IMG/VR virus record: IMGVR_UViG_3300013094_003805
Location: 1-20,940 of that record
Reading direction: 5' to 3' (one strand)
Length of the DNA: 20,940 nucleotides
DNA from: a virus
The position numbers and the translations under genes were made by a program. Below, in pieces: positions 7,363 through 20,940 of the stretch (the first letter of the stretch is position 1; each line of letters opens with the position of its first letter). The notes under the pieces were generated by a model that made no database searches, was not told the origin of the DNA, and was given only the letters and a program-made list of their open reading frames with translations.

Positions 7363-7778
7363 AACAAAGTTGTGGTGCACTTATATATTCAACAAGCACC
7401 AATAGATATCTATTCCTATTAAGAAATGGTGGGAGATTCCCTGACACGTGGGGAATAGTGGGCGGAAAAATAGAATCGGGCGAATCTATACTTGACGGAC
7501 TTCTAAGAGAAATACGAGAAGAACTCGGCGGGGAAATTAAGGGAGCCAAGATACTACCCATCGAACAATACACCAGTAACAAAGGTACGTTTATCTATCA
7601 TACTTTTTTAATCAAAGTAGAAGATGAGTTTTTGCCTGCATTAAATCATGAACATCACGGGTATTGCTGGGTTACATTGGACCATATGCCTAGACCGTTG
7701 CATCCAGGAGTTTGGAGAACATTCAAGTTCAAGGCCAATAAAGATAAAATACAGGTTTTAGAAAAGATTAGAGATTAA
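7344..7778 (+). CDS. Nudix hydrolase
   Basis: The 144-aa protein has a near-perfect Nudix box at residues 41-63: G, five residues, E47, seven residues, then REIREELGG. The last position is Gly instead of a bulky hydrophobic residue. Nudix enzymes cleave X-linked nucleoside diphosphates such as oxidised nucleotides, nucleotide sugars or NAD-type compounds; the substrate cannot be read from the sequence. Nucleotide-sugar hydrolysis is worth considering because the neighbouring operon makes GDP-sugars (inference). An AGGA precedes the ATG, inside the gp15 gene, which it overlaps by 19 bases, so it is probably co-expressed late. Its last 11 bases overlap tail to tail with the third oxygenase gene. 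Confidence 0.88.
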   Translation: MATNNLKQSCGALIYSTSTNRYLFLLRNGGRFPDTWGIVGGKIESGESILDGLLREIREELGGEIKGAKILPIEQYTSNKGTFIYHTFLIKVEDEFLPALNHEHHGYCWVTLDHMPRPLHPGVWRTFKFKANKDKIQVLEKIRD

Positions 7779-8352
7779 ACACCAGACTGGTTCTGGGTTC
7801 TGTACTATGATTAGGAGGAACTTCGTGATACAACCAGCTGGGCCACATCAACAATAATCCTGGGCTAGGAACATAATCGGTATGTTGTAAACTATACCAA
7901 TTTGTAGGATCTTTAATCATAAACATATAATCAAAGAAATCCTTAAATGGCTGATTAGGATAGAATCTTATGTTGGCACTGCCTGGCGGAGTTTTAAGAT
8001 AGTAAATTCCGCTTATAGTACATTGACTATGCAGATGTTTAGGGTGTGTGCTACCTTCTAAAAATCTGTTGGCAAATAAAAATGGCTTCCAAGGCACACG
8101 ACTACTATCATATCCCATTTGTTCTAAAAATGCACAGGCCTGGGCTTGTATAAAATCCACAAAAGGTTTGAAATCTTCGTTATGAGTTAAATTTTGTGTG
8201 CCGTAGGTTGTTTCACCGTTGTAGTAAAAATCAGTGTTGATATTTCTATCGGGAGATTCGAATAATTTATCCATCTGTAGATTCATTGGTTCAATCCACT
8301 CAGGGTGGTAGTCTCTCCCGATTACACTAGGAAACCAATGATCTAGATTCAT
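7768..8352 (-). CDS. 2-oxoglutarate/Fe(II)-dependent oxygenase-like protein (third of three)
   Basis: I place the start at 8352, giving 194 aa, because that ATG follows the stop codon of the previous gene after a single base and is followed by MNLDHWFPSV, whereas the longer reading frame would overlap that gene by 89 bases. Residues 103-120 (HPKHLHSQ, then SGIYYLKTPPG) and 170-189 (WPSWLYHEVPP, then RTS) match the putative 2OG-Fe(II) oxygenase family PF13759: an HxH/H..S iron-binding strand, a distal His176 and an Arg187 that would hold 2-oxoglutarate. Such enzymes hydroxylate proteins, sugars or small molecules; phage copies of this family are common in marine T4-like genomes. The substrate is unknown. 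It is the last gene of the sugar operon. Confidence 0.78.
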   Translation of the reverse strand: MNLDHWFPSVIGRDYHPEWIEPMNLQMDKLFESPDRNINTDFYYNGETTYGTQNLTHNEDFKPFVDFIQAQACAFLEQMGYDSSRVPWKPFLFANRFLEGSTHPKHLHSQCTISGIYYLKTPPGSANIRFYPNQPFKDFFDYMFMIKDPTNWYSLQHTDYVPSPGLLLMWPSWLYHEVPPNHSTEPRTSLVFNL

Positions 8353-8353
8353 A

Positions 8354-8881
8354 TTATTTTGTAAAGAATAACTGTATGCTAAGTCTTGGATATTCTGCAG
8401 CCAATGTAAGCATACTGGTACCGTGATAAATTGGAGGCACAAACCAAGTCATTAGATTGTAATGAGGAAATATCCAACGTTGTCCTTGCTCAGGATCATC
8501 GTATAAAAATAATCCACCCCAATTCCAATTCCAAGTAGGGTTAATATAGATTGTACTGGTTAACCGTTTGTCTTGACCTTCACTTACGTCATCGTGGTGG
8601 AAGTTGATTTGACTGCCAGGAGGCCAAATATGTAAAAATACTGTGGCATGATTATAGTCAGCAAATGCAGGATCAACAGACTTGTATTTGGCAACAAAAT
8701 ATTCTTCGTATTCGCTAAGAGGTATAATAAACACAGGAGCAAAACTGCCACGGTCTAATCCTTGTCCCCAACGTCCCATATTGTTAATTTCGAATGCAGC
8801 TTTGCCTTTGCTGTCTTCAAATTTTTGTGTAATTTCGTCGAGTATATGTTGTTCTAAAAAGTTAGGTACTTGGTTAACCAT
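8354..8881 (-). CDS. 2-oxoglutarate/Fe(II)-dependent oxygenase (second of three)
   Basis: The 175-aa protein shows the prolyl-4-hydroxylase-like double-stranded beta-helix pattern. HHDD at 95-98 supplies the HxD iron ligands, a GGLFLYDD segment at 122-129 follows, His153 (in PPIYHGT) is the distal ligand, and Arg166 (PRLSIQLFF) is the expected 2-oxoglutarate anchor. All key residues are present, so an active dioxygenase is likely. Phage enzymes of this group may hydroxylate virion or host proteins, nucleotides or sugars. It lies nine bases after the first oxygenase gene and one base before the third, which suggests these three act together or on related substrates. Confidence 0.82.
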   Translation of the reverse strand: MVNQVPNFLEQHILDEITQKFEDSKGKAAFEINNMGRWGQGLDRGSFAPVFIIPLSEYEEYFVAKYKSVDPAFADYNHATVFLHIWPPGSQINFHHDDVSEGQDKRLTSTIYINPTWNWNWGGLFLYDDPEQGQRWIFPHYNLMTWFVPPIYHGTSMLTLAAEYPRLSIQLFFTK

Positions 8882-8890
8882 AAGTGTCTT

Positions 8891-9445
8891 TCAATATTGT
8901 GTGCTGAAAAAGAAAACTTGGAAAAGTCTTCCTGTGTATAGGTCAGATCCAAAGTAGTCTAAACTGCTATGAAAAAGATCTCCTCGGTATAATACCAAAC
9001 GATTATATATGTTGCCTAGTGTATCATATAAATCCCATTTGGTCATATCTTGTGCTTCGTATCCTGTGGTTAATTCGCCTGCACGAACTGCACCAGTTGC
9101 ACGATGTCTGAATAAACCAGTGCCGCCTGTGTAAGGAGCGTCAGGGTTAAGATAACAAACTCCTGCCCAAGTGTTAAAATGATCACTATGAACCCAGCTG
9201 CGATCTGCTGCCGTAGTCAATTGAAATGCACCTGTGTAGCCGTCGTTCTCGAACCAATCTGTTACTGCACCGCCGGCGTTCCATACTATGCTTTGAATAG
9301 TTTCTTTTACATCGGGAGTAAGATGGCTGATTGTTCTTTTTCCTGGAAAATTTCCAGTCACTGAAAATGGTTGACTCAGTGCAAAATTTCTAACCCCATC
9401 AGGATTACTGTAAAAGTTATCAGTTATAATTACATTTGTTATCAT
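8891..9445 (-). CDS. 2-oxoglutarate/Fe(II) oxygenase-like protein (first of three, DUF6445-like)
   Basis: The 184-aa protein is less typical than its two neighbours but keeps the fold's landmarks: HSD at 86-88 (HxD), YLNPDAPYTGGTGLFRH at 98-114, His159 (GDLFHSS) and Arg173 in TGRLFQVFFF. The N terminus, ITNVIITDNFYSNPDGVRNFAL, is shared, as I recall, with a group of uncharacterised marine proteins resembling DUF6445. The reaction would be hydroxylation or a related oxidation coupled to 2-oxoglutarate, but the substrate is unknown. It starts 14 bases after the GT10 gene ends, in the same operon. Confidence 0.7.
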   Translation of the reverse strand: MITNVIITDNFYSNPDGVRNFALSQPFSVTGNFPGKRTISHLTPDVKETIQSIVWNAGGAVTDWFENDGYTGAFQLTTAADRSWVHSDHFNTWAGVCYLNPDAPYTGGTGLFRHRATGAVRAGELTTGYEAQDMTKWDLYDTLGNIYNRLVLYRGDLFHSSLDYFGSDLYTGRLFQVFFFSTQY

Positions 9446-9459
9446 AATATTATCGAGTA

Positions 9460-10257
9460 TTAATTACTTAGTTGTGCTATCTCAGCTGCAATAAATTCTT
9501 CTAATCGTTGATAGATACTTTTTTCCCAATAAGGCAACGCTCGTTGGTAGTTTTCTTCTATAGCATCTGCCATTGCGTCATAGTGTGCAGGAGTAATATT
9601 TTTTAGTATGTTTTCTAACTGTTCTATGTTAAAAAACGGTACCACACCTGCGGGATTAAAAAAATCCCCTATATTAATGCAACCATAGTATATAGGAACA
9701 GTTTTGGTTATAAAACAATCCAGTATTTTTTCACTAAACATATTGTGCATAACTTGGTTTTCGCAAGCTATGTTGAACTTGGCATTTTGGAAGTAAGGAT
9801 CTTTAGTGGGAATTCTAGGAGGACTTCGATACATTTTGAATTCAAAGTCGCCTACCGTAGTACGTTTTTCCATTCTACGCAATATCATAAAACGCAGTCT
9901 ATGATCAGGAGTATATATTTTACTGCTCATCATATAGGTAATTTGATTGTGTTTTACAATGTCAGGAGTTTGTATCCAACTACCAGCAGGCACAAACAAT
10001 TTGGCATTAGGCAATTTTAATAATTCAGGATTATAAGCAAGTATGAGATCAAATTTATCAGCATTGTCATATACCATCTTCGCAAAATCTCTGTATAACA
10101 CTGGAGGTTCGCATTGTACCAACACTCGATAGTCGGCGGTTAAGTCTGTTTCTATCGTATCAAAGCTTACTGCAACTCGTCGATCAAAGTCTTTTGTAAA
10201 TTGAAAAGCAGGGTTACCACTGTAACCTGGCATATACCCGTACTGAACTGCCTGCAT
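9460..10257 (-). CDS. GT10-family glycosyltransferase (fucosyltransferase-like)
   Basis: The chosen start is the ATG at 10257, which overlaps the Gmd stop codon by one base (TGATG) and is preceded by GGAGCAGG; the longer frame begins at 10275. The product is 265 aa. Residues 161-192 hold the GT10 donor-binding signature: FNIACEN, then FSEKILDCF, then TVPIYYG, equivalent to the FxxxENS...TEK...VPVxxG block of alpha-1,3/1,4-fucosyltransferases. This family transfers L-fucose from GDP-fucose, and sometimes other GDP-6-deoxy sugars, to a glycan acceptor in the cytoplasm. The gene directly follows GDP-mannose 4,6-dehydratase, whose product is the precursor of GDP-fucose, which fits. No GDP-fucose synthase is visible in the window, so the donor could instead be another GDP-6-deoxyhexose. 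Confidence 0.78.
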   Translation of the reverse strand: MQAVQYGYMPGYSGNPAFQFTKDFDRRVAVSFDTIETDLTADYRVLVQCEPPVLYRDFAKMVYDNADKFDLILAYNPELLKLPNAKLFVPAGSWIQTPDIVKHNQITYMMSSKIYTPDHRLRFMILRRMEKRTTVGDFEFKMYRSPPRIPTKDPYFQNAKFNIACENQVMHNMFSEKILDCFITKTVPIYYGCINIGDFFNPAGVVPFFNIEQLENILKNITPAHYDAMADAIEENYQRALPYWEKSIYQRLEEFIAAEIAQLSN

Positions 10258-11225
10258 CAAACCTGCTCCATCCAATGTGCAATCATTTCGTCTAACATAG
10301 ATTCAAAAGTATAGGTAGGTTTCCAACCTAATTCGGCTCTAATCTTACTGCTATCGCCTTTGAGATAGCGTAGCTCTTCGGGACGTAAAAACTTTTGATT
10401 CTGTACTACATATTGATTATAGTCCATATCTAATTTAGAAAACACATACTCGCATAAGTCTCGTACACTATGACTTTCGCCGGTGGCAACTACCCAGTCT
10501 CTAGGTAAATCATTGTTTATGATCAAATGCATAGCACGTACATAATCATAACTATGCCCCCAATCTCTGCAACTGTCTAAGTTACCTAATTCCAATTTGT
10601 CTGCTAGCCCTTTTTTAATTTCTACTGCAGTTTTAACAATCTTGTTGGTAACAAAGTTAGTGCCCCTACGTGGGCTTTCATGATTAAACAATATGCCGTT
10701 ACAGGCGTGTAGTTTATAAGCATCTCTATAATGACGTACAAGATTGTAGCCCATTACTTTACTAACACCGTAAGGACTTACTGGCACCATTGGTGTGGTT
10801 AATCTTTGGGTATGGTCTTCGTCGATGCTATTACCAAACATTTCACTACTACTGGCTTGATAAAACTTAGCAGTGGGACAAAATTGACGATAAGCTTCTA
10901 GCATTGTTAGTACACCGAGCCCGTTGGTTTTAATTGTAAATGCTGGCATTTCAAAACTGATTCTTACGTGACTCATAGCTGCGAGATTGTAAATCTCGTC
11001 CGGTTGGATATCAGTAATAGTTTTAGTAATGCTCCACTCATCAGTCAAGTCACCATAGATACGAGTTATACGTGTGTCTATATGGCTGAGTCTACTGCTT
11101 TGATTTTCTGCCACACTATGCCTACGAACAATGCCGTAGACTTCGTAGCCAAGACTCAGTAGATATTCGCTAAGATAACTGCCGTCTTGCCCTGTTATAC
11201 CTGTTATTAGTGCTCTTTTTGTCAT
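10257..11225 (-). CDS. gmd: GDP-mannose 4,6-dehydratase
   Basis: The 322-aa protein is a short-chain dehydrogenase/reductase with the Gmd signature. It has a Rossmann nucleotide loop, GITGQDGSYLSEYL, at 9-22, the Gmd-type VRRHS at 33-37, SSSEMFG at 125-131 (Ser/Thr and Glu of the active site) and YGVSK at 152-156 with catalytic Tyr and Lys. CRDWGHSYDYVRAM is the GDP-sugar binding stretch. It converts GDP-D-mannose to GDP-4-keto-6-deoxy-D-mannose with tightly bound NADP+. Bacterial Gmd is usually about 345-375 aa, so this is a compact form. The product can be reduced to GDP-L-fucose or GDP-D-rhamnose or aminated to GDP-perosamine; the aminotransferase just upstream favours the last. The start overlaps the aminotransferase stop by four bases (ATGA). 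Confidence 0.93.
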   Translation of the reverse strand: MTKRALITGITGQDGSYLSEYLLSLGYEVYGIVRRHSVAENQSSRLSHIDTRITRIYGDLTDEWSITKTITDIQPDEIYNLAAMSHVRISFEMPAFTIKTNGLGVLTMLEAYRQFCPTAKFYQASSSEMFGNSIDEDHTQRLTTPMVPVSPYGVSKVMGYNLVRHYRDAYKLHACNGILFNHESPRRGTNFVTNKIVKTAVEIKKGLADKLELGNLDSCRDWGHSYDYVRAMHLIINNDLPRDWVVATGESHSVRDLCEYVFSKLDMDYNQYVVQNQKFLRPEELRYLKGDSSKIRAELGWKPTYTFESMLDEMIAHWMEQV

Positions 11226-11914
11226 TTGAATAGTCGTTTGGTTGTTAAATCTGGATAGTTTTGTTCTGTTGCTGAATCACCATATGTACTGGGATCCACA
11301 CTATCCATTAGTATAATTCCACGTGCAGCATCTTCAGGAGTCATATAGTAATGCCATCCCATCACTGCATAATCATCTTCCCACTGGGGGACTGCTAAAT
11401 CTCTGCCATCATAACTGGCCAATTTAAGCCATTTGTATGCTTCGAGATCATCTGTTAGTACCATACCACCGCGGCCAATTGGTACACGCTTTTTAAGTTG
11501 AAAACTTACGCAATGTAGCCCACCTGTATACATTCCAGGAGTCCATCGTACTGCGGCATCCCATACAGGATAAGGTTTAAGTTGATACCTACCGCTCCAC
11601 GCAATATCTTCAAATGCTACACGACAGCCAGCGTGCACAATCTGTTGTGCAATACTCACATAGGATCTAGTAGGCATAGTAACTGTGCCCATAGCATTAC
11701 AGTATTTCAAACTTAAAAATACTGCGTGACTGCAACAATCTACTGCCACCGCATAACAGCTACCAGCAAATGCTGCAACTTTTTTTTCAAACATATCTAC
11801 TACATCTCTTGGATCTTGCCAATCATATCCCAAAGTTTTCAATTGATCTAATTCTGGGCGTTGTAGATGTTTTGGTAATTGCCCCAAAGGCCAGCTGGTA
11901 TATTTTTCACTCAT
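11222..11914 (-). CDS. Compact DegT/DnrJ/EryC1-type sugar aminotransferase
   Basis: The 230-aa protein resembles the N-terminal catalytic domain of PLP-dependent nucleotide-sugar aminotransferases. WDAAV at 118-122 carries the Asp119 that pairs with the PLP ring nitrogen; SFQLKKRVPIGRGGMVLTDD at 137-156 matches the SFxxxK...GxGGMxxT block, with Lys142 the likely Schiff-base residue. Full-length members are about 370-400 aa, so most of the C-terminal domain is missing or reduced, though the frame ends cleanly with a stop and a four-base overlap with gmd. It may be a natural compact enzyme. The likely substrate is a 4-keto-6-deoxy nucleotide sugar, and the Gmd product would give GDP-perosamine (inference). 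It overlaps the acyltransferase gene by eight bases. Confidence 0.72.
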   Translation of the reverse strand: MSEKYTSWPLGQLPKHLQRPELDQLKTLGYDWQDPRDVVDMFEKKVAAFAGSCYAVAVDCCSHAVFLSLKYCNAMGTVTMPTRSYVSIAQQIVHAGCRVAFEDIAWSGRYQLKPYPVWDAAVRWTPGMYTGGLHCVSFQLKKRVPIGRGGMVLTDDLEAYKWLKLASYDGRDLAVPQWEDDYAVMGWHYYMTPEDAARGIILMDSVDPSTYGDSATEQNYPDLTTKRLFK

Positions 11915-12479
11915 ACTCGATCTCTATATTATAAAATTCATTTACTCGTTGAGCAAGTTCTTTGACTCCTCTACGGGGAATTTGTTTGCCAGACCTATCA
12001 ACCAATAAATTCCATTTTTCTAAATTTAATGATTTGTTAACTACAGTATTGGCTGCTACTGCAAGCCCTTGTGGTAAGTTACTGCCGGGTAGTACTATAC
12101 TGTTTGCCCCAACTAACACAAAACTATCTAGCACTACATTGTCAATTATCACATTGTATTGATACTGTTTGGGTATTGTGGGTAAATCCAACCCACATTT
12201 AACATAATTACTACTACCAGCATAGACCTTACATCCAGCACTTAAACCGCTGAATGCTCGCATAGTAATGATACCAGCACTTGCACTTAACACACAGCCA
12301 GCAGCTATGTGTACATAGTCGCCGATGTTGACTGTTCCTGATATGTAAGTATAATCGTCGATTATTACATTGTTGCCAATACTTACCAATTCAGGATTTC
12401 TGATACGCACAGTCTTCCCAATGATAACATTAGTACCACAGGATTTTAATGTTGCAGTATCAAAAAACAAATTGCTCAT
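11907..12479 (-). CDS. Hexapeptide-repeat (left-handed beta-helix) acyltransferase
   Basis: The 190-aa product has the imperfect six-residue repeat with V/I at every sixth position (NVIIGKTVRI, ELVSIGNNVIIDDYTYISGTV and similar) that builds a left-handed beta-helix. VHIAAGC at about 56-62 contains the likely catalytic His57. GANSIVLPG and LPQGLAVAANTVV are typical C-terminal coils of WbbJ/MaaA-type O-acetyltransferases. These trimeric enzymes move an acetyl or other acyl group from acyl-CoA to a sugar. Together with the aminotransferase it could N-acylate a 4-amino-4,6-dideoxyhexose such as perosamine, or O-acetylate the finished glycan. The start overlaps the cupin stop by four bases (ATGA). 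Confidence 0.85.
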   Translation of the reverse strand: MSNLFFDTATLKSCGTNVIIGKTVRIRNPELVSIGNNVIIDDYTYISGTVNIGDYVHIAAGCVLSASAGIITMRAFSGLSAGCKVYAGSSNYVKCGLDLPTIPKQYQYNVIIDNVVLDSFVLVGANSIVLPGSNLPQGLAVAANTVVNKSLNLEKWNLLVDRSGKQIPRRGVKELAQRVNEFYNIEIEYE

Positions 12480-12886
12480 AGAAATACTTTATCTAACTCT
12501 TGGCCTTGATAAGGTCCTGTTTTATATTCATAAACCACTGTATCGTCTTCAAGAATAGTATAGGTATGCCCGCCTTGATAAGTCAAACTACAATCGCCGC
12601 GGCGAATAATTTGTTTTTCAATCAAGGTATCATCAATATCAAAAAAACTAACCTCCACACTACCTTGAATTACTACCCAAGACTCTTGTGCAATTACCAA
12701 ATCAACTACTGGTTGTTTCCAAATATGTTTGTGCGGTCTGAATGTTTTGTCTTTGGGCATACGCAATGTAGCCAATTGCAAAAACTGTTCATTTTCACTG
12801 ATATCTGTACGCTCGGTTATTTCGTCAAATCTATTGATTCTGTGCAACAACAACTCGGGTGCAACTTTGCTATAAATGTTATACAT
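12476..12886 (-). CDS. WbuC-like cupin-fold protein
   Basis: The start at 12886 (Met15 of the longer frame) is chosen because it overlaps the GT4 stop codon by only a few bases, while the longer frame would overlap by 50. The product is 136 aa and cupin-shaped: RPHKHIWKQPV near the middle offers metal-binding histidines, VIQGSVEVSFFD is the typical cupin turn, and the end reads VVYEYKTGPYQ, as in WbuC proteins of O-antigen gene clusters. WbuC-like proteins accompany fucosamine and other deoxysugar pathways but have no firmly known reaction. Its presence here supports the reading of this block as a deoxysugar pathway. Confidence 0.7.
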   Translation of the reverse strand: MYNIYSKVAPELLLHRINRFDEITERTDISENEQFLQLATLRMPKDKTFRPHKHIWKQPVVDLVIAQESWVVIQGSVEVSFFDIDDTLIEKQIIRRGDCSLTYQGGHTYTILEDDTVVYEYKTGPYQGQELDKVFL

Positions 12887-13934
12887 AATAAAAATTCTGC
12901 CTTGATATTTTCTTGAACCAGTTTTCAAATTTTGCGTGAATTACATCATCACTGAAGTTATCCATTGCCCAGGTTCTGCAATTGGCAGGATCCAACTGAT
13001 CTACGACTGCCGCGGATTCAACAAATGTTTTGAAGTCTCCGCATCTAAATCCTGTTACCCCGTGTACTACACTATCAACGAATCCGCCCCAGTCTGGAGT
13101 CAGTACTGGAGTGCCACTCATTGCAGCTTCTACTACAATATTACCAAAGGGCTCTAAATAGTGTGTGGGTGCCATTAAACAAGCTGCTTTAGATAACAGT
13201 TGTTTGCGTTCTTCCATATTAACTGACCCAATGTGAGTCACGTGACTGGGAGTTGTTGCATAGCCCAGACTTTGTAAGTTACCCGGTCCGGCTACTATCA
13301 ATTTTTTACCTAAATGTTCTGTAACCTGGATACAAAGGTCAACTCCTTTGTCGGTATTAACACGCCCAAGGAATACAAAATAATCATCTTTTTTATCATT
13401 GAACTCAAATTCACTAGGAGTAAATGCATTAGCAATAACTGTATCAAACCAACTGGGAGTTAGTAATCTTTGATGCAGGCCATAGTAGTAATGCATTTGA
13501 CTATAACTGGTAAATGCACGATAAGGTGCAAATACTGTGTCGGGCCAATAACCGATGCTAGGTTCAACTATAAAAAGATCCTGATGTCGTAGTGCCAGTT
13601 CTTTATGTGCTATGCCATAAAAGCATAGAATCATATCACCTGGACGTTTTCTGCGGGAGATTTCTTTATCTGCACGTTCAGTGAACTTGGCTCCCAAGTC
13701 ACCTTTTTCCGAAAATATTTGATCTTTTTCGGGAGGCGGATGATCTTCGTTGGTAATTACTGCAACATTTTCGCAGTCTACTTCTGCGCTTTCGTGTCCG
13801 TAATGTAATAAATTGAAACCTCTGTCTTTCATATTAGCTATAAATTTAAGTACAGCTACATTAAAAGGTTCAATTCGATATTTGGTGTGTGTTATTCCGT
13901 AGGGATTGGATAGAATGTGTAATGTAGGATTCAT
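12879..13934 (-). CDS. GT4-family glycosyltransferase
   Basis: The 351-aa protein is a GT-B fold retaining glycosyltransferase. The C-terminal half carries FVFLGRVNTDKGVDL (186-200), KLIVAGPG (211-218), and EPFGNIVVE at 261-269, which gives the EX7E catalytic/donor signature (Glu261 and Glu269), followed by SGTPVLTPDWGG and HGVTGF. It would transfer a sugar from an NDP-sugar to a glycan or lipid acceptor. The start is kept at 13934 because LHILSNPYG is the first strand of the N-terminal Rossmann fold; the next Met is at residue 35. The predicted transcription start of the sigma70-like promoter upstream lies within two or three bases of this ATG and no ribosome binding site is visible. It is the first gene of the deoxysugar operon. 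Confidence 0.88.
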   Translation of the reverse strand: MNPTLHILSNPYGITHTKYRIEPFNVAVLKFIANMKDRGFNLLHYGHESAEVDCENVAVITNEDHPPPEKDQIFSEKGDLGAKFTERADKEISRRKRPGDMILCFYGIAHKELALRHQDLFIVEPSIGYWPDTVFAPYRAFTSYSQMHYYYGLHQRLLTPSWFDTVIANAFTPSEFEFNDKKDDYFVFLGRVNTDKGVDLCIQVTEHLGKKLIVAGPGNLQSLGYATTPSHVTHIGSVNMEERKQLLSKAACLMAPTHYLEPFGNIVVEAAMSGTPVLTPDWGGFVDSVVHGVTGFRCGDFKTFVESAAVVDQLDPANCRTWAMDNFSDDVIHAKFENWFKKISRQNFYYV

Positions 13935-13992: not shown

Positions 13993-14610
13993 CTATCGAG
14001 TCTTGCCCCATTTAAGTTTGTTCCAAACTCTTTCGTGGTACCAATATAATAATGTTGATAATACTGCTTGTATGCCAGCAATACTACCAGCAGTAGTCAA
14101 TTTGCCAGTCATTAATAAACTTATTAAAAATGTTTCCACTGTGCCAATGATACGCCAAGATATTGCTTTTACTAAACTTCTAACATTGGAGTCACTGGGT
14201 GCTTGCGTTAAATCACTGGCTATGGACTTTACCCAAGAGTCTGACCAATCTGTAATATGATATGTTACTGAAGTTGGGTTTTCGAATAATTTATTGGTAT
14301 CTGCAAATCTACCTTCTTCAATGGTATCCATCCAAATAACTATATCAGCATTAAATGCATCACGTAGTTTTTCAGTAGGGCAAACAAAATCGCAAACTGA
14401 AAAATCACTACCCGAGTTGTTGCTCAGGTCAATCATACGTTGCATTTGGCGTTCGCGACCTTCAGGAGAAAAATCCCAATCGTTAAATTGTTCTCTTACT
14501 GTGTCAGCATTGAACCAACTTACTGAATGGGTAAGCATTAGTCGTTTAACTAGTTCTTGACTAAATGTAGTTTTACCAGATCCTGGCAAACCCATTACCA
14601 ATATCTTCAA
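13993..14610 (-). CDS. Adenylylsulfate (APS) kinase-like domain fused to a DUF2061 membrane domain
   Basis: Residues 1-125 are a P-loop kinase with a Walker A GLPGSGKTT at 7-15, NADTVRE at 34-40 (CysC has DGDNVR), DFSPEGRERQ at 46-55 (CysC has a DFS..DR.EN stretch) and FVCPTEKLRDAF at 76-87 (CysC has an F.SP.R..R..R segment). This is the APS kinase layout; the enzyme makes PAPS from adenylylsulfate and ATP. Residues 141-203 match DUF2061: RSLVKAISWRIIGTVETF, then a hydrophobic LLMTG...AGSIAGIQAVLS stretch with two likely membrane helices and a WYHERVWNKLKWG end. The start is TTG, overlapping the methyltransferase stop as TTGA; later Met6 would cut the first strand. The paired sulfotransferase upstream supports PAPS supply. 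Another P-loop kinase substrate remains possible. Confidence 0.78.
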   Translation of the reverse strand: MKILVMGLPGSGKTTFSQELVKRLMLTHSVSWFNADTVREQFNDWDFSPEGRERQMQRMIDLSNNSGSDFSVCDFVCPTEKLRDAFNADIVIWMDTIEEGRFADTNKLFENPTSVTYHITDWSDSWVKSIASDLTQAPSDSNVRSLVKAISWRIIGTVETFLISLLMTGKLTTAGSIAGIQAVLSTLLYWYHERVWNKLKWGKTR

Positions 14611-15173
14611 CGCAAACTCCGAGCAGGTTTGTAGGCTTTTGCTTTAATGTGTACTTGGTAGCAAGTGTTGTTATATTTGTTAAATTCTATATTAACAGCT
14701 TCTGGGGGCAAAGTTTTTGCGTATTCCATAAACCAAGGGGTGAAATCATGGCCTACTTCCGTGACTGCTATATCTATCCCTAATTGTAACCCTAAGGTAG
14801 TTTCTTGCCCGTGGTTTTCAACAGTTTCAGTATTTTTACGTTGATTAAACATATCAATACCAACTGGAGTAATTGCCCTTATGTGTGTAGGGTCGTGAAC
14901 AAAATTATCGTGCCTATAGTGAGGTACAGTAATATAAATTTCTGCACCATCTTTAAGAATTCTATAGAATTCTTTCCATATGGCAAAATAACTTTTAGTA
15001 TCTTGGCCGAGATGTTCTAACACATGGTGTATGACTATCTCGTCCACTGAATTGTCTTTCCAGGGCAGCTTTTTTTCTAGATCTACAACTTTATCTGGAT
15101 TGCAAGAAGGGTCGTTATCAACGTTAACATACCCTTCAAGCTTATTGTACCCACAGCCCAGGTTTAACTTCAA
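14607..15173 (-). CDS. SAM-dependent methyltransferase
   Basis: The 188-aa protein opens with the class I methyltransferase motif LNLGCG at residues 3-8, then NVDNDPSC with an acidic residue for the SAM ribose, a DLEKKLPWKDNSVDEIVIHHVLEHL segment (motif II/post I, 31-55) and YRILKDGAEIYITVPH (motif III). This resembles the small methyltransferases that modify sugars in polysaccharide clusters. The methyl acceptor is unknown; sugar O-methylation is plausible from the neighbours. The start codon is TTG, with the stop of the previous gene overlapping as TTGA; using a later start would remove motif I. Translation is therefore probably coupled to the upstream gene. Confidence 0.85.
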   Translation of the reverse strand: MKLNLGCGYNKLEGYVNVDNDPSCNPDKVVDLEKKLPWKDNSVDEIVIHHVLEHLGQDTKSYFAIWKEFYRILKDGAEIYITVPHYRHDNFVHDPTHIRAITPVGIDMFNQRKNTETVENHGQETTLGLQLGIDIAVTEVGHDFTPWFMEYAKTLPPEAVNIEFNKYNNTCYQVHIKAKAYKPARSLR

Positions 15174-15565
15174 TTCAATGCATCCAACTCGTCGTGTGTA
15201 TTACAAGCATTAATGGCTGCAATTCTAGCAGTCATAGTTGCTTGTGCAGCGGTAATTGCAGATGGATCAAATGATTCTGGATCCATTGCGCTTTCACGAA
15301 TTGTCTGTTGAACTGCAAATTTTGCCTGTGTAATCATTGATGATTTACGGTCATCTACAGAAATATCAAATGTTCCCCAAACGATTTGCACAGGATCTGT
15401 TGTCAAATCAAATGTGTGTGCAGTATAACCCTGACGATTTGGAATAATGTCTGGTCTGACTTCTACTGCGTTTCTCCAACCGTTGTTACCAACGCCCTCT
15501 GCTGGGGGTGTATCCCAAACATCAGTTACGTTACCATCAACTACTCTTACATAATGTGTGCTCAT
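15170..15565 (-). CDS. Small phage protein of unknown function
   Basis: I do not recognise this 131-aa protein with certainty. The N-terminal half begins YVRVVDGNVTDVWDTPP, a style seen in phage tail-fibre accessory proteins, and looks beta-rich; the C-terminal half (residues 75-131) is a pair of Ala-rich helices ending THDELDAL, resembling DUF4376-like phage proteins. It may assist fibre folding or attach to the virion. AAGGAGA lies about seven bases before the ATG, and the ATG overlaps the stop of the sulfotransferase gene by four bases (ATGA). Its position between a sulfotransferase-glycosyltransferase and a methyltransferase is odd for a structural protein. Confidence 0.72.
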   Translation of the reverse strand: MSTHYVRVVDGNVTDVWDTPPAEGVGNNGWRNAVEVRPDIIPNRQGYTAHTFDLTTDPVQIVWGTFDISVDDRKSSMITQAKFAVQQTIRESAMDPESFDPSAITAAQATMTARIAAINACNTHDELDALN

Positions 15566-17328
15566 GCGACTCTCCTTAATTTAGTCTGTTTCAATCTTTG
15601 TTTAATATTGTTAAACGGTGCAGTCCAATCCCCAAATACTTCTTGACGGAATAACGTCATTGAGTCATAATATGGATTTTTTTCACCTTCTAACGCATAT
15701 AAGTAATACCCCATTACAGGTATCACAACCCATGTTTCTATGCCCATAGCCGCACTCAAGTGGCTGACTGATGTGCAAGAACTAATAACTAGGTCGCAAC
15801 TTGCGGCCGCAACTCTAGTATCTTCCCATGTATTTAGCGGAACTTGCTTAACCCACGTCGGACAAGCATCTGCCCCTTCGTCTCTTTGCAGGCTTATAAA
15901 CTCGTATTCGTCATTTTTTACCGCATCAAACATCAGCTGATATGGGAATTTTTTGTTGTGATCCTCTTCAAATTTGCTCTGTCCTTGCCATCTAAGACCG
16001 ATACGTTTTTTAGGACCTTTAATGGTAATAGGCTTAGTTATGTAAGGATCTCCGCGCAAATCTGCTAGTTCTAATCCCAATGGCCCCGGAGCTACCATAG
16101 CAAATGTCCAAAAATCGTGATAAACACCAAATTCTGCACCGTGTTGTACTACTGCACTAACTCCCTCAACATCTTTGAATAAACTGGCTAGCATACCAGT
16201 ACAACAAACAATAACTTTATTTCCCCGTGCAGCTAAGTCTTTTGCATACCTAACTTGATGTATTTGATCGCCTAATCCATGATCACAGTATAACAATATT
16301 GTGCCTTTAGATTTGCCGTCCCATTCTGGTGCAGGTGTGTCGGGATGTTGGTCTCCAATAATACCGCAGAACCGGCCTCGATTCATAACTGTGTAACCTT
16401 CTAGTATTTTGCCTTGTCTAAGCAAATACCAACTTTTGTTGTAAGCAGCTCTATGATCGCCAGGTCTTTCTCTTTCTAATTTTTGTGCTAAACGCCATCC
16501 TTCGGCAAAATCACCTATTTTTCCTGCAGCTACTTGAAGGTCTAGATCATCTAATGTCGGAGTAGTTCTTTTACCGTCACTCCAAAATTCTGGCTGGCAG
16601 AATTGATTATAATGATAACTTAATACTACTTTTGGGTCGTCTGTATGTTGACGTGCTAGCACTGGTTTAATATCGTGCATACCTTCGTAACCGTGTATAT
16701 TTTCATCGTCTTCTTTTACAGAAGATCCGTCAATGTTACTAAAATCGTATTTGAATGGTTTAAGTCCCAAGAACTTATGTATGCGTTGCAGTTCTTTTTT
16801 AGGATTAGCAATTAAGTCGTCGTACTCAACGAATAAGAAACATTCAGGCATTGCTTCGTATCCGGACTGTAAACTGATATAAGCTGCCTTAAGGTGATCG
16901 GCTAATTGACCGTCATACATAAATTTATCAAGGTCATCAGGTTTTGCAACTCTGACAAAACTAGCCATACAATCAGGAACTGGTCGTACTGTAGCAATGA
17001 TTTTAGGTTTGGCCCCTAAGACCTGTGTCATCGCCTGCATAATAACAGGTATAGGCCAGCCTCTACCCTTGTCAATCACTATTTTTTTGTCAGTATCTTC
17101 GTAGAATGCATCAATCATTCCACGCATTGTTTCTGCTAATTTTGTTCGATTAGGATCATTTTCGTTAAGCAATCCTTGGCTGAACCAAGTATTTGCTAAA
17201 GAATCAAGTGCGTGAACTAGCCCGGACGTAGTTGACACGTGTGTGGCAGGATTTTGGTTTAATATAGCGGCCAAAACCGTAGACCCGCTGCGGGGAATTC
17301 CCGATAAGAAGTGTAGTGTTTTTTTCAT
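15562..17328 (-). CDS. Sulfotransferase fused to TPR and GT9-like glycosyltransferase domains
   Basis: The 588-aa protein joins two enzyme domains. Residues 1-245 are a PAPS-dependent sulfotransferase: SGIPRSGST at 9-17 is the 5'-phosphosulfate loop, and VRPVPDCMASF at 114-124 supplies the Arg and Ser that bind the 3'-phosphate. Residues 260-315 look like one or two TPR helix pairs. Residues 335-585 resemble the GT9/heptosyltransferase-like domain found in TPR-glycosyltransferases: GLGDQIHQVRYA at 351-362, RIGLRWQG at 442-449, FISLQRDEG, and SSCTSVSHLSAAMG at 516-529. The protein could add a sugar and sulfate the same glycan. Met1 must be the start, since the PAPS loop begins at residue 9. 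There is no ribosome binding site; a perfect late box ends five bases upstream. Confidence 0.83.
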   Translation of the reverse strand: MKKTLHFLSGIPRSGSTVLAAILNQNPATHVSTTSGLVHALDSLANTWFSQGLLNENDPNRTKLAETMRGMIDAFYEDTDKKIVIDKGRGWPIPVIMQAMTQVLGAKPKIIATVRPVPDCMASFVRVAKPDDLDKFMYDGQLADHLKAAYISLQSGYEAMPECFLFVEYDDLIANPKKELQRIHKFLGLKPFKYDFSNIDGSSVKEDDENIHGYEGMHDIKPVLARQHTDDPKVVLSYHYNQFCQPEFWSDGKRTTPTLDDLDLQVAAGKIGDFAEGWRLAQKLERERPGDHRAAYNKSWYLLRQGKILEGYTVMNRGRFCGIIGDQHPDTPAPEWDGKSKGTILLYCDHGLGDQIHQVRYAKDLAARGNKVIVCCTGMLASLFKDVEGVSAVVQHGAEFGVYHDFWTFAMVAPGPLGLELADLRGDPYITKPITIKGPKKRIGLRWQGQSKFEEDHNKKFPYQLMFDAVKNDEYEFISLQRDEGADACPTWVKQVPLNTWEDTRVAAASCDLVISSCTSVSHLSAAMGIETWVVIPVMGYYLYALEGEKNPYYDSMTLFRQEVFGDWTAPFNNIKQRLKQTKLRRVA

Positions 17329-17370: not shown

Positions 17371-17390
17371 AATTGAAACAGTATTCAATT
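17371..17390 (-). terminator. Second small hairpin at the adhesin stop codon
   Basis: AATTGAA (17371-17377) and TTCAATT (17384-17390) form a 7-bp stem around ACAGTA. The hairpin overlaps the TAA stop of the adhesin gene. It is only four bases from the larger hairpin, so the two form a tandem structure at the end of the transcript. Confidence 0.35.
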
Positions 17391-20300
17391 ATATATGAAT
17401 ACCTGCTGCAGAATTTGGTCCTGCAGATACACCAATCCATTGAGTTGCAGATCCGACTTGTTTTGGTGAACTATAGCTAGTAGCATTACCGATTCCCAAT
17501 ACACTGTTGCTGTTTTGTCCCCAAGCATATAATGCAGTGCCTGTTGTTGCATAGCTGTTATATCCATTTGACGAAGCAGCAACTGCTTTCCAAGTAGTTA
17601 ATGCTCCAACTTGTTTGGGACTTGAGTAACTTGTAGTATTACCTAATCCTAGTACGCCGCCAAAGCCGTATCCAAACGACCATAATGTTCCGTCAGTCTT
17701 GACTGCAATTATGTGATCTCTGCCAGATGCTACCTGTGCCCAATTGGTCAAAGAACCAACCTGTTGGGGACTAGATGTGTTTCCGCTAACTCCTCTGCCG
17801 CCTTCACCAAAGCCGCCAAATCCCCAAGTCCACAAAGTTCCATTGGTTTGAATTGCTGCAACGTGGAAATAATTTACGCTAACAGATTTCCAAGTATTCA
17901 CTCCGCCAACTTGTATAGGACTAGAAACACTGCCTAGGAATCCGAGTCCGCTTTGTCCATAGTATCGGCCGTCTCCCCAAAACCATAATGTACCGTCAGT
18001 TTTAAGAGCTTGCGTCATGTATTGTCCGGATGATACTGTCAACCAAGTAGTCAATGCGCCGATTTGTTTTGGACTATTATAAGTACCTGAAGTAGTGTTT
18101 AACCCTAATTGTCCCTGAGTTTGTGTACCCCAACTAAACAGTGCTCCGCTGGTTGTAATACCGATTGTAAAAGCGTCACCGCCGGCAATTACTTTCCAAG
18201 TATTTGAGCCAACTTGTTTCGGACTTGAATAATTAGTTGTATTAGCTAAACCTAACTGTCCAGAACTATTTAGACCCCACGCCCACAAATTATTATTGGC
18301 ATCAATTGCAAATGAGTGACAGTTACCGGCCAAGTATGTTTGTTTCCAAGTATTACTTGTTCCAACTTGCATAGGAGTCGAATATGTTGTAGTATTATTC
18401 AATCCTAACTGACCAGATCCACCGCTACCCCACATATACAAGTTACCTTGTGTTAATGGTGGGCTTACACTGTTACTATTAGCACTTGTGTTACTTGTTC
18501 CGTAGCTATTAACTGCAACAACTGTAAATGTATAACTAGTTCCTGCAGATAAGCCGGCTACAGAAATTGTGCCGCTAGCAGCAGTACTTAATGTTGCACT
18601 TATACTACCCGGAGTACTTGTAGCTACGTAGCTGGTAATGGTCGATCCACCATTGTTTGTCGGTGCAGTATACGGTACATTTGCTGTTGTAGTAGTTGCA
18701 GTTACTGTACCGATGGTTGGAGCACAGGGTGCTCCAACACTAATTGAAGTTGTAGATCCACTGGAAGTACCAGTACCAATTGCATTAGTTGCAGCAACTG
18801 TAAATGTATATCTAGTACCTGTTGTCAATCCGGTTACAGTAATTGTACCTGATCCAGCTTGACTTAGTGTAGCAGTCACTGAACCGGGAGTACTTGTAGC
18901 AGTATAGTACAATATTGTACTTCCACCATTGCTTGCCGGTGCAGTAAATGATACCGTTGCACTACACAATGTGATTGCACTAGCAGTACCAATAGTAGGT
19001 GCACCTGGTAATATTGCAGTGTAAGTCGCTGAACTGTTTGAACCAGTGGTGGATCCAAAGCTATTAGTTGCAACTGGTGTAAACGTATATGTTGTGCCTG
19101 ATGTAAATCCGGTTAGTGTAACTGTTCCGCCACGTGGAGTAAATGTTGCGGTTACACCACCTGGTGTACCGGTGACCACTACACTAGTTGGACTTCCGTT
19201 GTTACCTGTAGCGCTGGCAGTTATTGCTATACCAGTTCCGCCAACATTTGTGGCAGTTATGCTAGGTATACCTGGTGCGCTAGCATTGGCAATACCAAGA
19301 GCCATAGTTCCCGCAACATATGCCCAAGTCGTCGATGAGCCGACTTGTTTTGGACTGGAATAACTAAGTAGGTTATTTAATCCCAAGCGGCCGGGTGACG
19401 AATTGGTACCCCAGGTCCATAATGTTCCGTTATTCTTAAGTCCAGCCATTCCGTATCCTATGCCGGACAAGTTAGTCACTTGAGTCCAATTGGTCAGTGC
19501 TCCAACTTGAGTAGGGCTTGAACGATTAACAGTGTCGTTTAATCCTAATGCACCGTAGGAATTATTATATCCCCAGGTCCATAGTGTACCGTCAGTTTTA
19601 ATTGCACCAGAGACACCATTGGATAAAGCGCCATCGAGTGGTAATTTGCTCCAATTAGTTAATGACCCAACTTGTCTTGGACTACTATAACCAGTTGTAG
19701 TACCTAGTCCTAGTTGTCCAATATTGTTATAGCCCCAAGCCCAAAGAGTTCCATCGGTTTTAGTCGCTAAAACCCCAAGAGAAGAAGCATAAACCTGGTT
19801 CCAAGTAGTCAATGCACCAATTTGAATGGGACTAGAATTATTAATAGTAATAACGCCTTGACCTAATGCACCGTAGTTGCCAAATCCCCACGCCCAAAGA
19901 GTTCCATTGGTTTGAATACCGAACCCAGTGGAGGTATCTGAATCTACTTGTTTCCAAGTAGTTAATGCACCAACTTGTTTTGGACTGGAATAAGGAGTGG
20001 TATTATTCAATCCTAATACCCCGGCACTAGCGCCTCCCCAAACCCAAAGAGTTCCGTCGGTTTTAATTGCCATGGTATTATAGGAACGACTAACTACACT
20101 ACTCCAATTGGTCAATGCACCAACTTGTTTTGGACTTGAATAATTTATAGTATTACCTAATCCTAACTGACCGATAGCGTTATATCCCCAGGTCCACAAT
20201 GTTCCATTAAATTTAATGGCTGCAGCACTACAACATCTACCTTGAGATATAAATTTCCAATTATTACCAGCACCTATTTGTACAGGACTAGAATAAGTAT

Positions 20301-20940
20301 TTACTGATTGATTTGTACCGCTGAAACCGTAACAGTTTGAGCCCCAGGTCCACAATGTACCGACTCCCGGAGCAACTATACCGCTTGGAGAGCTTGGAGA
20401 GCTTGTGCCAGCAGTATTAATTGCTTGTAAGGTGAATGTATAGTATGTGCCACTTGATAGTCCAGCTACTGTAATAGTACCAGATCCTGCTTGACTTAGT
20501 GTAGCAGTAATGCCGCCTACGTTTGCAGTTGCAACATAACTTGTAATTGGTGATCCGCCGTTTGCAGGAGCAGTATATATAATTGCCGCAGTAGTAGTAC
20601 CGTAAACTGGTATAGATGCCGAGCAAATAACCGGTGCACAAGGTGCACCAAATGTAGTCACAGTACCGGTTGGAGTACTTGCGTTACTTGTTCCGTAACT
20701 ATTAATTGCAGTAACAGTGAAGGTATAAGAAGATTTTGTTCCTAATCCAGTTACTGTAATTGTACCTGATGTAGCTTGTGTTACTGTAGCACTAATACCA
20801 CCTACGTTTGCAGTTGCTACATACTTGGTAATTGGATATCCGCCGTTATTAACTGGTGCAATATAGCTTACTGTAGCAGTAGAAAAACCAGTTGCCGTTC
20901 CAGTTGCTCCAGTAGGTGCACAAGGTGCACCAAATGTAGT
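17389..20940 (-). CDS. Giant RCC1-propeller/Fn3 adhesin or tail fibre, 5' end beyond the window
   Basis: At least 1183 codons are open, and the frame runs without a stop through base 20940, so the true start is outside; the GTG at 20659-20661 is internal. From the N-terminal side there are two Fn3-like domains (20940-20370), seven RCC1 repeats (about 20370-19290), three Fn3-like domains (about 19290-18465) and seven more RCC1 repeats (about 18465-17392). RCC1 units repeat as GTLWTWG...GQLGLG...SSPKQVG. Fn3 units carry TVTGLTTGTRYTFTV-type strands. RCC1 units form seven-bladed propellers, so two propellers are expected. The protein is Thr/Ser/Gly rich with few charges, like marine phage and bacterial surface fibres. 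A host-receptor-binding tail fibre is the best guess; a virion-surface adhesin is the alternative. The tandem hairpins at its 3' end and adjacent glycan genes are notable. Confidence 0.85.
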   Translation of the reverse strand, partial: TTFGAPCAPTGATGTATGFSTATVSYIAPVNNGGYPITKYVATANVGGISATVTQATSGTITVTGLGTKSSYTFTVTAINSYGTSNASTPTGTVTTFGAPCAPVICSASIPVYGTTTAAIIYTAPANGGSPITSYVATANVGGITATLSQAGSGTITVAGLSSGTYYTFTLQAINTAGTSSPSSPSGIVAPGVGTLWTWGSNCYGFSGTNQSVNTYSSPVQIGAGNNWKFISQGRCCSAAAIKFNGTLWTWGYNAIGQLGLGNTINYSSPKQVGALTNWSSVVSRSYNTMAIKTDGTLWVWGGASAGVLGLNNTTPYSSPKQVGALTTWKQVDSDTSTGFGIQTNGTLWAWGFGNYGALGQGVITINNSSPIQIGALTTWNQVYASSLGVLATKTDGTLWAWGYNNIGQLGLGTTTGYSSPRQVGSLTNWSKLPLDGALSNGVSGAIKTDGTLWTWGYNNSYGALGLNDTVNRSSPTQVGALTNWTQVTNLSGIGYGMAGLKNNGTLWTWGTNSSPGRLGLNNLLSYSSPKQVGSSTTWAYVAGTMALGIANASAPGIPSITATNVGGTGIAITASATGNNGSPTSVVVTGTPGGVTATFTPRGGTVTLTGFTSGTTYTFTPVATNSFGSTTGSNSSATYTAILPGAPTIGTASAITLCSATVSFTAPASNGGSTILYYTATSTPGSVTATLSQAGSGTITVTGLTTGTRYTFTVAATNAIGTGTSSGSTTSISVGAPCAPTIGTVTATTTTANVPYTAPTNNGGSTITSYVATSTPGSISATLSTAASGTISVAGLSAGTSYTFTVVAVNSYGTSNTSANSNSVSPPLTQGNLYMWGSGGSGQLGLNNTTTYSTPMQVGTSNTWKQTYLAGNCHSFAIDANNNLWAWGLNSSGQLGLANTTNYSSPKQVGSNTWKVIAGGDAFTIGITTSGALFSWGTQTQGQLGLNTTSGTYNSPKQIGALTTWLTVSSGQYMTQALKTDGTLWFWGDGRYYGQSGLGFLGSVSSPIQVGGVNTWKSVSVNYFHVAAIQTNGTLWTWGFGGFGEGGRGVSGNTSSPQQVGSLTNWAQVASGRDHIIAVKTDGTLWSFGYGFGGVLGLGNTTSYSSPKQVGALTTWKAVAASSNGYNSYATTGTALYAWGQNSNSVLGIGNATSYSSPKQVGSATQWIGVSAGPNSAAGIHI
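17392..18465 (-). repeat. C-terminal block of seven RCC1 repeats
   Basis: Seven repeats, each opening with L-[WYF]-x-[WF]-G, follow one another: LYMWGSGG, LWAWGLNS, LFSWGTQT, LWFWGDGR, LWTWGFGG, LWSFGYGF and LYAWGQNS. Each ends in a form of SSP.QVG followed by a W..V strand. Spacing is about 50 codons. Seven units equal one complete RCC1 propeller. Confidence 0.85.
19290..20370 (-). repeat. N-terminal block of seven RCC1 repeats
   Basis: Seven units begin LWTWGSNC, LWTWGYNA, LWVWGGAS, LWAWGFGN, LWAWGYNN, LWTWGYNN and LWTWGTNS. The final unit is followed by SSTTWAYVAGTMALG, which closes the ring, and then by an Fn3-like domain. The number of units again equals one propeller. The unit boundaries are more diverged than in the Fn3 part. 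Confidence 0.85.
20633..20940 (-). repeat. 94-codon tandem Fn3 repeat with a perfect 26-base junction copy
   Basis: The 26 bases at 20633-20658 recur without mismatch at 20915-20940, exactly 282 bases (94 codons) apart. They encode the linker TTFGAPCAP at the start of each Fn3-like unit. A related VGAPCAP linker occurs near 18730. The array may continue beyond the window. Confidence 0.85.

Follow-up and report, generated by a model that had tools for sequence, protein, structure and literature searches.

Proteins with RCC1 repeats are routinely annotated in phages as 'regulator of chromosome condensation' and belong to the DNA metabolism class of PHROGs. Mass spectrometry has detected GAP32 gp1 and the W70_237-239 proteins in virions (PMC5259590, PMC11370258), the three RCC1 proteins being well represented in the W70 particles (PMC11370258), and phAPEC6, with 11 RCC1 copies (PMC7247149), was reported to be whiskered (PMC5259590). 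A role of phage RCC1 proteins in DNA condensation was suggested in PMC7247149 and PMC11370258. This set (PHROG 4219/7220) consists of RCC1 propellers of tailed phages, often in several copies, and resembles in this the protein studied here. However, the W70 copies of 40-43 kDa have room for one propeller, whereas the open reading frame (ORF) described below encodes two propellers with Fn3 spacers and lies beside a sulfotransferase gene. Papers on RcGTA and on rumen phages that mention 'RCC1' proved to be coincidences of name.

Other related systems are phages that carry RCC1 genes near their tail fibre genes. In the Synechococcus phage S-SRM01, the gene order is baseplate wedge, long tail fibre distal subunit, RCC1, hypothetical protein, RCC1, TPR protein and, further on, RCC1 and sulfotransferase. 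The RCC1 genes (gp335, gp337 and gp344) follow the long tail fibre genes, and both a sulfotransferase and a homologue of a TPR/glycosyltransferase-like (TPR-GT) domain are present, as in our window, the whole stretch of 20,940 nucleotides of viral DNA that was analysed. Unlike in the window, the S-SRM01 proteins have 6-7 units each and the two enzymes are not fused. In BUCT-ZZ01, a tail fibre gene is followed by a tail-assembly-chaperone-like gene, a 14-unit RCC1 gene and a TPR-GT homologue. Its 'BNR repeat' gene, which again follows long tail fibre genes, shares the 14 units and the TPR-GT homologue with the window ORF, but its protein is without Fn3 spacers. The tail fibre neighbourhood was also observed in IMG/VR relatives; the upstream side of the window ORF lies off the contig.

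Two further phages, PollyC and Littlefix, come from different families and share the host Pseudomonas sp. CT12. PollyC gp12 combines a T7-fibre N-terminal domain with a C-terminal RCC1 propeller, and Littlefix gp88 is a long fibre-like protein that also ends in a propeller; the two propeller regions are 35% identical (E 2e-70). Like the window ORF, a probable fibre protein, both end in an RCC1 propeller, but they differ from it in having a single propeller and a visible fibre N-terminus and show no close sequence relationship to the window propellers. Receptor-binding tips are known to be exchangeable in phages, for example those of T4-type long tail fibres. The RCC1 proteins resemble these tips in combining a conserved, putatively docking N-terminus with an exchanged, probable binding domain, whereas the fold is here an RCC1 propeller with repeating variable slots.

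The window ORF (17389-20940, minus strand) encodes 1183 amino acids in one frame without internal stops and is truncated by the contig end. It is composed as follows:

20650..20940, minus strand: Fn3 domain 1 (residues ~1-97; 5' end of the gene missing), Pfam fn3, limits drawn by eye
20365..20649, minus strand: Fn3 domain 2 (residues ~98-192), Pfam fn3 and Fn3-like matches
19273..20361, minus strand: RCC1 propeller A, 7 units (residues 194-556), from PF00415, unit HMM and AlphaFold2
19003..19272, minus strand: Fn3 domain 3 (residues ~557-646), Pfam fn3
18736..19002, minus strand: Fn3 domain 4 (residues 647-735), best Pfam fn3 stretch at 647-731
18454..18735, minus strand: Fn3 domain 5 (residues ~736-829), Pfam fn3
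17392..18447, minus strand: RCC1 propeller B, 7 units (residues 832-1183), from PF00415, AlphaFold2 and Foldseek

The stop codon (17389-17391) directly ends propeller B. Pfam matched the ORF with RCC1 (PF00415, E 1.3e-88, 14 stretches), WD40_RLD (E 6.6e-105) and fn3 (E 4.1e-31, 5 stretches), E-values that exclude a chance origin of the RCC1 and Fn3 matches. A six-frame family search gave 14 RCC1 matches, 12 of them above the curated cut-off and all inside this frame. Fn3 domain 4 also matched a PHROG 'minor tail protein' (5e-16). By motif position, the units start at about residues 194, 246, 296, 346, 397, 451 and 505 in block A and 832, 883, 932, 983, 1034, 1084 and 1135 in block B. The 14 repeats therefore form two blocks of exactly seven, with two Fn3 domains preceding block A and another three separating A from B. 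This is the layout of the original prediction, which had counted 7 + 7 units, three Fn3-like domains between them and at least two before them; the observation is confirmed.

The same prediction took the count of seven to mean closed propellers, and structure prediction of each block upheld this. In the AlphaFold2 models, blocks A and B have 28 strands each (7x4) at a pLDDT of about 90 or more (mostly 85-97 in the propeller of block A, about 94 in block B). Both models open on strand two of a blade, and the C-terminus supplies strand one of that closing blade, which is how a closed ring is expected to be sealed. Since the predicted fold has 28 strands and ring closure in each case, seven units per block are confirmed, and the models support a closed seven-bladed propeller for each. 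With Foldseek, block B matched UVR8 best in the PDB (6.4e-31), and also HERC1, RPGR and RCC1. The eukaryotic RCC1-like domains (UVR8, HERC1/2, RPGR, RCC1) are seven-bladed too, with a TM score (target) of ~0.80-0.89, but share 21-28% identity with the window propeller and have no phage context. The Fn3 portions of the models are unreliable (pLDDT mostly <50) because hardly any Fn3 homologues are present in the alignment, and the Fn3 calls rest on Pfam. Among related phage ORFs, the unit HMM found exactly 7 units in 63 of 71.

The sequences of the propellers were also compared. Window blocks A and B are 46-47% identical to each other and ~37-53% identical to the propellers of other phages. Since their likeness to each other is no greater than that to other phages, a recent internal duplication was rejected. 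Shuffling of blades is a possible reading, as the best-matching blades often came from other positions, but with moderate identity for most propellers. In the propellers compared, variable slots recur at the identical place in every blade, and variability is concentrated in the loops of one face while the opposite face is constant. Positions above 2 bits made up 27% and 77% of the top-face loops, compared with 0% and 3% of the bottom-face loops (p 4e-7, calculated over positions that are not independent). Tyrosine made up 10.3% of the variable slots and 2.6% of the scaffold.

These features bear on the DNA-condensing function implied by the RCC1 family name and suggested in PMC7247149 and PMC11370258. 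The window protein is almost uncharged (K+R 2.8%, D+E 1.2%), which argues against nucleic-acid binding. Its Fn3 spacers, the variable face and the setting in a module of fibre and enzyme genes speak in the same direction, and the available text of the two papers cites no direct DNA-binding evidence for a phage RCC1 protein. A DNA-condensing protein of an inner body is extremely improbable. Phage RCC1 propellers are likely, judged from their exchange, single variable face and adjacent sulfotransferase gene in relatives, to be exchangeable receptor-binding heads instead.

Since no close relative of the window propellers was found, the evidence for exchange comes from other phages. In the two closest pairs of relatives, the sulfotransferase genes were 92-96% identical at the nucleotide level and the N-terminal leaders 80-94%, whereas the propellers fell to 62-66%. 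In L018/L036, the values were 96% for the sulfotransferase, 94% and 88% for the leaders and 62-64% for the propellers; in L025/L026, for which the aligned value of the sulfotransferase was used, the enzyme and leaders were likewise kept and the propellers diverged. The contrast between leader and propeller rests mainly on these two pairs; over all pairs, propeller identity correlates with sulfotransferase identity too (rho 0.59). The pattern in these relatives is one of propeller exchange against a constant background. The codons of unchanged residues differed in ~46% of cases in the propellers compared, as would suit recombination better than targeted mutation. Mutagenesis by a diversity-generating retroelement was rejected, because of these codon differences and since no reverse transcriptase (RVT_1) match was found in the window or in 13 related contigs, which are possibly fragments.

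The N-terminus of the window ORF is missing, as the ORF is open at its 5' end at the contig end and the virus is represented by a single record of 20,940 bases; a virion-attachment domain or a signal peptide would lie off the contig. A DNA pattern search with the window's final 26 bases gave no upstream extension in viral contigs. RCC1 and Fn3 proteins occur in bacteria too. This occurrence and the missing N-terminus would allow for a secreted or displayed adhesin that acts off the virion as a moron. However, the relatives have short, polar leaders with no hydrophobic signal obvious by eye and their genes adjoin fibre genes, so that an adhesin of this kind is very improbable.

The genes behind the window ORF are:

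15562..17328, minus strand: sulfotransferase (residues ~1-250; PF13469 4e-15, PF00685 1.8e-10) fused to a TPR/glycosyltransferase-like half (~270-588)
15170..15565, minus strand: 131-amino-acid protein; in L009 and L010, a similar-looking ORF likewise comes after the RCC1 gene
14607..15173, minus strand: methyltransferase of the same gene cluster (PF08241 8.3e-7)
13993..14610, minus strand: APS-kinase-like P-loop protein fused to DUF2061 (PF01583 1.4e-6, DUF2061 4e-18)

In S-SRM01 and L016, each half of the first protein has a gene of its own. The nearest solved relatives of the sulfotransferase are, weakly, protein-tyrosine sulfotransferases (E 0.0035), and the match to the NoeE family was far under the cut-off. 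Its PAPS-binding residues (the PRSGST loop and an Arg/Ser pair 8 apart) align to TPST2, and P12, R13, S14, G15, S16 and T17 of the loop as well as R115 and S123 were invariant in 12 homologues. This supports a PAPS enzyme, not a protein substrate. The protein at 13993-14610 matched best, among solved structures, the APS-kinase domain of PAPS synthetase (2.9e-4) but stayed below the NCBIfam cut-offs (TIGR00455, 20.7 bits vs 138.7), and is therefore labelled APS-kinase-like; it might supply PAPS, the sulfate donor. The 131-amino-acid protein had no match in Pfam, PHROG or NCBIfam and is possibly a fibre accessory protein. An ORF similar to the methyltransferase is present in L009 and L014-L016.

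Among 21 distinct sulfotransferase-bearing loci, 20 had a propeller gene within 1 kb. In most, the distance was ~0-70 nucleotides, and the sulfotransferase was often sandwiched between propeller genes. Propeller genes numbered six in tandem in L014-L016 and four in several loci; several phages have 3-6 of them, more than one receptor-binding tip requires. A search with the gp15-like backbone returned 80 loci, with neither RCC1 nor sulfotransferase in any (0/80 each), and no RCC1 gene was found in nine of their longer source contigs, so that the N-terminus of the window ORF is not recoverable from them.

The tight linkage in 20 of 21 loci to a weakly TPST-like enzyme makes it likelier that, as the original prediction hinted, the fibre may itself be modified. 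Alternatively, the sulfotransferase, glycosyltransferases and epimerase may modify the host surface for superinfection exclusion, the linkage to RCC1 reflecting a shared island of host interaction; this competes with the modification step and not with the adhesin reading. In its favour, 9460-13934 is filled by sugar-pathway genes, and the glycosyltransferase at 12879-13934 is kept in backbone relatives whose fetched loci have neither RCC1 nor sulfotransferase. This retention, however, means that the partner travelling with RCC1 is the sulfotransferase, in most loci immediately beside and often between propeller genes, and not the sugar genes. We regard modification of the host surface as possible but doubtful.

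The propellers might also be surface decorations (hair-like, on tail sheath or capsid) through which virions adhere weakly and non-specifically to cells or mucus, and not specific receptor-binding tips. The tandem and fourfold gene copies fit this, as do the 11 copies of the whiskered phAPEC6 (PMC7247149, PMC5259590) and the good supply of three RCC1 proteins in W70 virions (PMC11370258). On the other hand, CBB is whiskered without the GAP32 RCC1 protein (PMC5259590), the RCC1 genes come after long tail fibre genes in S-SRM01 and BUCT-ZZ01, and the fibre-like proteins of PollyC and Littlefix terminate in the propeller. Exchange between phages and a single variable face also suit specific binding, and we consider decoration unlikely.

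We conclude that the window ORF is probably the distal part of an exchangeable fibre or fibre-tip adhesin, most likely modified by the adjacent sulfotransferase/TPR-GT enzyme. The conserved propeller scaffold would present a face of variable loops, rich in Tyr, Ser and Asn, for binding to a structure on the host surface, with the Fn3 domains as spacers. Short N-terminal leaders would serve docking and stay, together with the enzyme gene, while the propellers swap, so that host specificity can change. The enzyme would modify the fibre or propeller, possibly with PAPS from the APS-kinase-like protein. More tentatively, phages may carry a cassette of propeller and sulfotransferase in which the linked PAPS enzyme sulfates, and TPR-GT glycosylates, the Tyr/Ser-rich binding face and tunes specificity; the phage receptor-binding protein would then be one with post-translational modification. 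The virion location, receptor binding and modification of the window protein itself we infer; the predicted role in a receptor-binding fibre is supported by comparison, from the fibre neighbourhood, exchange, variable face and PollyC and Littlefix, rather than for this protein directly.

The architecture is distinctive in part, since RCC1 proteins in phage virions were already reported in PMC5259590 and PMC11370258; the Fn3-linked double propeller and the pattern of swaps and enzyme are new. The evidence points to exchangeable adhesins, which would call for a revised RCC1 annotation in many phages. If our reading is true, a repeat scaffold with fixed variable slots would be a natural library of binding proteins, and the linked sulfotransferase would allow the modification of a receptor-binding protein by the phage itself to be put to the test.

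The ORF at 17389-20940 on the minus strand encodes 1183 residues; it runs off the end of the contig, so its 5' end is open. Its 14 RCC1 repeats fall into two blocks among five Fn3 domains, in the order Fn3-Fn3-(7 RCC1)-Fn3-Fn3-Fn3-(7 RCC1)-stop. The original prediction, 7 + 7 RCC1 units with three Fn3 domains between them and at least two before, was correct, and this observation on the sequence is confirmed. Closed propellers had been proposed from the count. AlphaFold2 models of the first and second RCC1 blocks (propellers A and B), built with 49 other propeller sequences, bear this out with 28 strands in each block, corresponding to seven four-stranded blades. Each block opens on strand two of a blade and its final strand supplies strand one, so that the ring is predicted to close. 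The pLDDT was mostly 85-97 for propeller A and about 94 across most of propeller B. Foldseek placed UVR8, HERC1, RPGR, HERC2 and RCC1 closest to the model of block B among solved structures (E ~1e-30, target TM ~0.80-0.89), and the top viral structure matches of this model were annotated RCC1 proteins of uncultured phages.

The units follow the consensus GTLWxWGxNxxGQLGLGNTTxYSSPKQVGALTxWxxIxxGxxxxxAIKTD, with variable slots identical in position across all seven blades. Loops B-C and D-A' of a four-stranded antiparallel blade project from the same face, and loops A-B and C-D from the opposite one. With the faces assigned from strand order and not from coordinates, 27% and 77% of the positions exceeded 2 bits in the B-C/D-A' face loops, whereas 0% and 3% did so in the A-B/C-D face loops. 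The variability therefore appears to sit on one face. Ser, Thr, Asn and Tyr are frequent in the variable slots; Tyr makes up 10.3% there and 2.6% of the scaffold.

Elsewhere the window has the genes of a T4-like phage, with a gp15-type sheath stabiliser, a head-tail adaptor and further structural proteins. Downstream of the propeller gene lie:

15562-17328, minus strand: sulfotransferase fused to a TPR/glycosyltransferase-like half
next: a 131-aa protein, then a methyltransferase
13993-14610, minus strand: APS-kinase-like P-loop domain and DUF2061 membrane domain in a single protein, a combination unusual for a phage
beyond it: sugar genes and 2OG-Fe(II) oxygenases
12879-13934: glycosyltransferase
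7768-9445, minus strand: two 2OG-Fe(II) oxygenase-like ORFs and a DUF6445 ORF, all three consecutive

The glycosyltransferase is kept in relatives found via the gp15-like gene, and in those retaining it no propeller or sulfotransferase gene was seen; RCC1 genes were present in 0 of the 80 backbone loci. Propeller and sulfotransferase therefore travel as a pair, separately from the sugar genes.

A search with the sulfotransferase gene alone gave 21 distinct loci, 20 of which have an RCC1 gene within 1 kb, in most cases no more than 70 nt away; the single exception was a weak 30% partial match. The majority carry separate single-propeller genes, often two upstream of the sulfotransferase and one or two downstream of it. 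Exactly seven units were found in 63 of 71 distinct propeller ORFs, 14 in two (the window and BUCT-ZZ01) and other numbers in six, two of them cut by contig ends. The BUCT-ZZ01 protein (L042 6131-8233, annotated as BNR repeat protein) is a second double propeller of 14 RCC1 units but lacks the Fn3 spacers. In the more distant phages S-SRM01 and L014-L016, sulfotransferase and TPR/glycosyltransferase-like protein are separate genes still adjoining RCC1 genes, so the association is independent of the fusion. In L014-L016 (e.g. L016 4113-12965), six RCC1 genes lie in tandem; their N-terminal parts of ~90 residues all differ, and a methyltransferase, the TPR/glycosyltransferase-like gene and the separate sulfotransferase come after them. 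Among bacterial and archaeal genomes, a relative occurred on only three small MAG contigs, in one of which an RCC1 gene starts immediately behind it.

Between the related loci L018 and L036, the sulfotransferase is 96% identical in nucleotides; identity is 94% and 88% for the leaders of the propeller proteins encoded by the two upstream genes, but only 62-64% for the propellers. Codons of unchanged residues differ at about 46% in the propellers and 11% in the sulfotransferase. L025 and L026 showed the same pattern (sulfotransferase 92%, leaders 80-83%, propellers 62-66%). In these two pairs, leaders are retained and entire propellers replaced. In L010, L017, L031, L043 and others, the leaders carry a recurring short motif of the type G-x-W-[TS]-x-x-Q-...-G-[TN]-W, which precedes propellers in unrelated phages and is possibly a common docking peptide. 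In L035 (7474-12978) and L027, blades at different positions in different propellers of one phage share up to 96% identical DNA, which suggests blade-level gene conversion. A five-unit ORF (L024 2010-2921) has near-identical repeats (94-96% nt) and an end resembling the next protein's leader; it may reflect a deletion or an assembly collapse.

RCC1 genes also stand beside fibre genes. The gene row of S-SRM01 reads baseplate wedge, long tail fibre distal subunit, RCC1, hypothetical protein, RCC1, and that of BUCT-ZZ01 tail fibre, tail-assembly-chaperone-like protein, RCC1. PollyC gp12 (Autographiviridae) combines RCC1 with an N-domain of the T7 fibre (E 6.7e-5, falling slightly short of the Pfam threshold). 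In Littlefix (Schitoviridae), RCC1 forms the C-terminus of gp88, a long protein of coiled-coil-like character that the structure library labels a tail fibre protein. Both phages infect Pseudomonas sp. CT12, and their RCC1 regions are 35% identical (E 2e-70). The phage RCC1 proteins GAP_001 (PMC5259590) and W70_237-239 (PMC11370258) were detected in virions by mass spectrometry.

PAPS-binding residues are conserved in the sulfotransferase half across 12 homologues; among solved structures, the best matches of this half, though weak ones, were protein-tyrosine sulfotransferases. The APS-kinase-like neighbour, which scored below curated family cut-offs, could supply PAPS. From the gene linkage, the fibre is a plausible, putative substrate. 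The ORFs at 7768-9445 are possibly further fibre-modifying enzymes; a 2OG-Fe(II) oxygenase is also found inside the RCC1 cluster of S-SRM01.

RCC1 proteins in phage virions had already been described, in most cases with a misleading label, and no paper in the library searched brought 'chromosome condensation' together with 'receptor binding protein' and 'phage'. Taken together, the position beside fibre genes, the exchange, the single variable face, the fibre fusions and the virion precedents make the proposed phage receptor-binding fibre, putative for the window protein, well supported by comparison.
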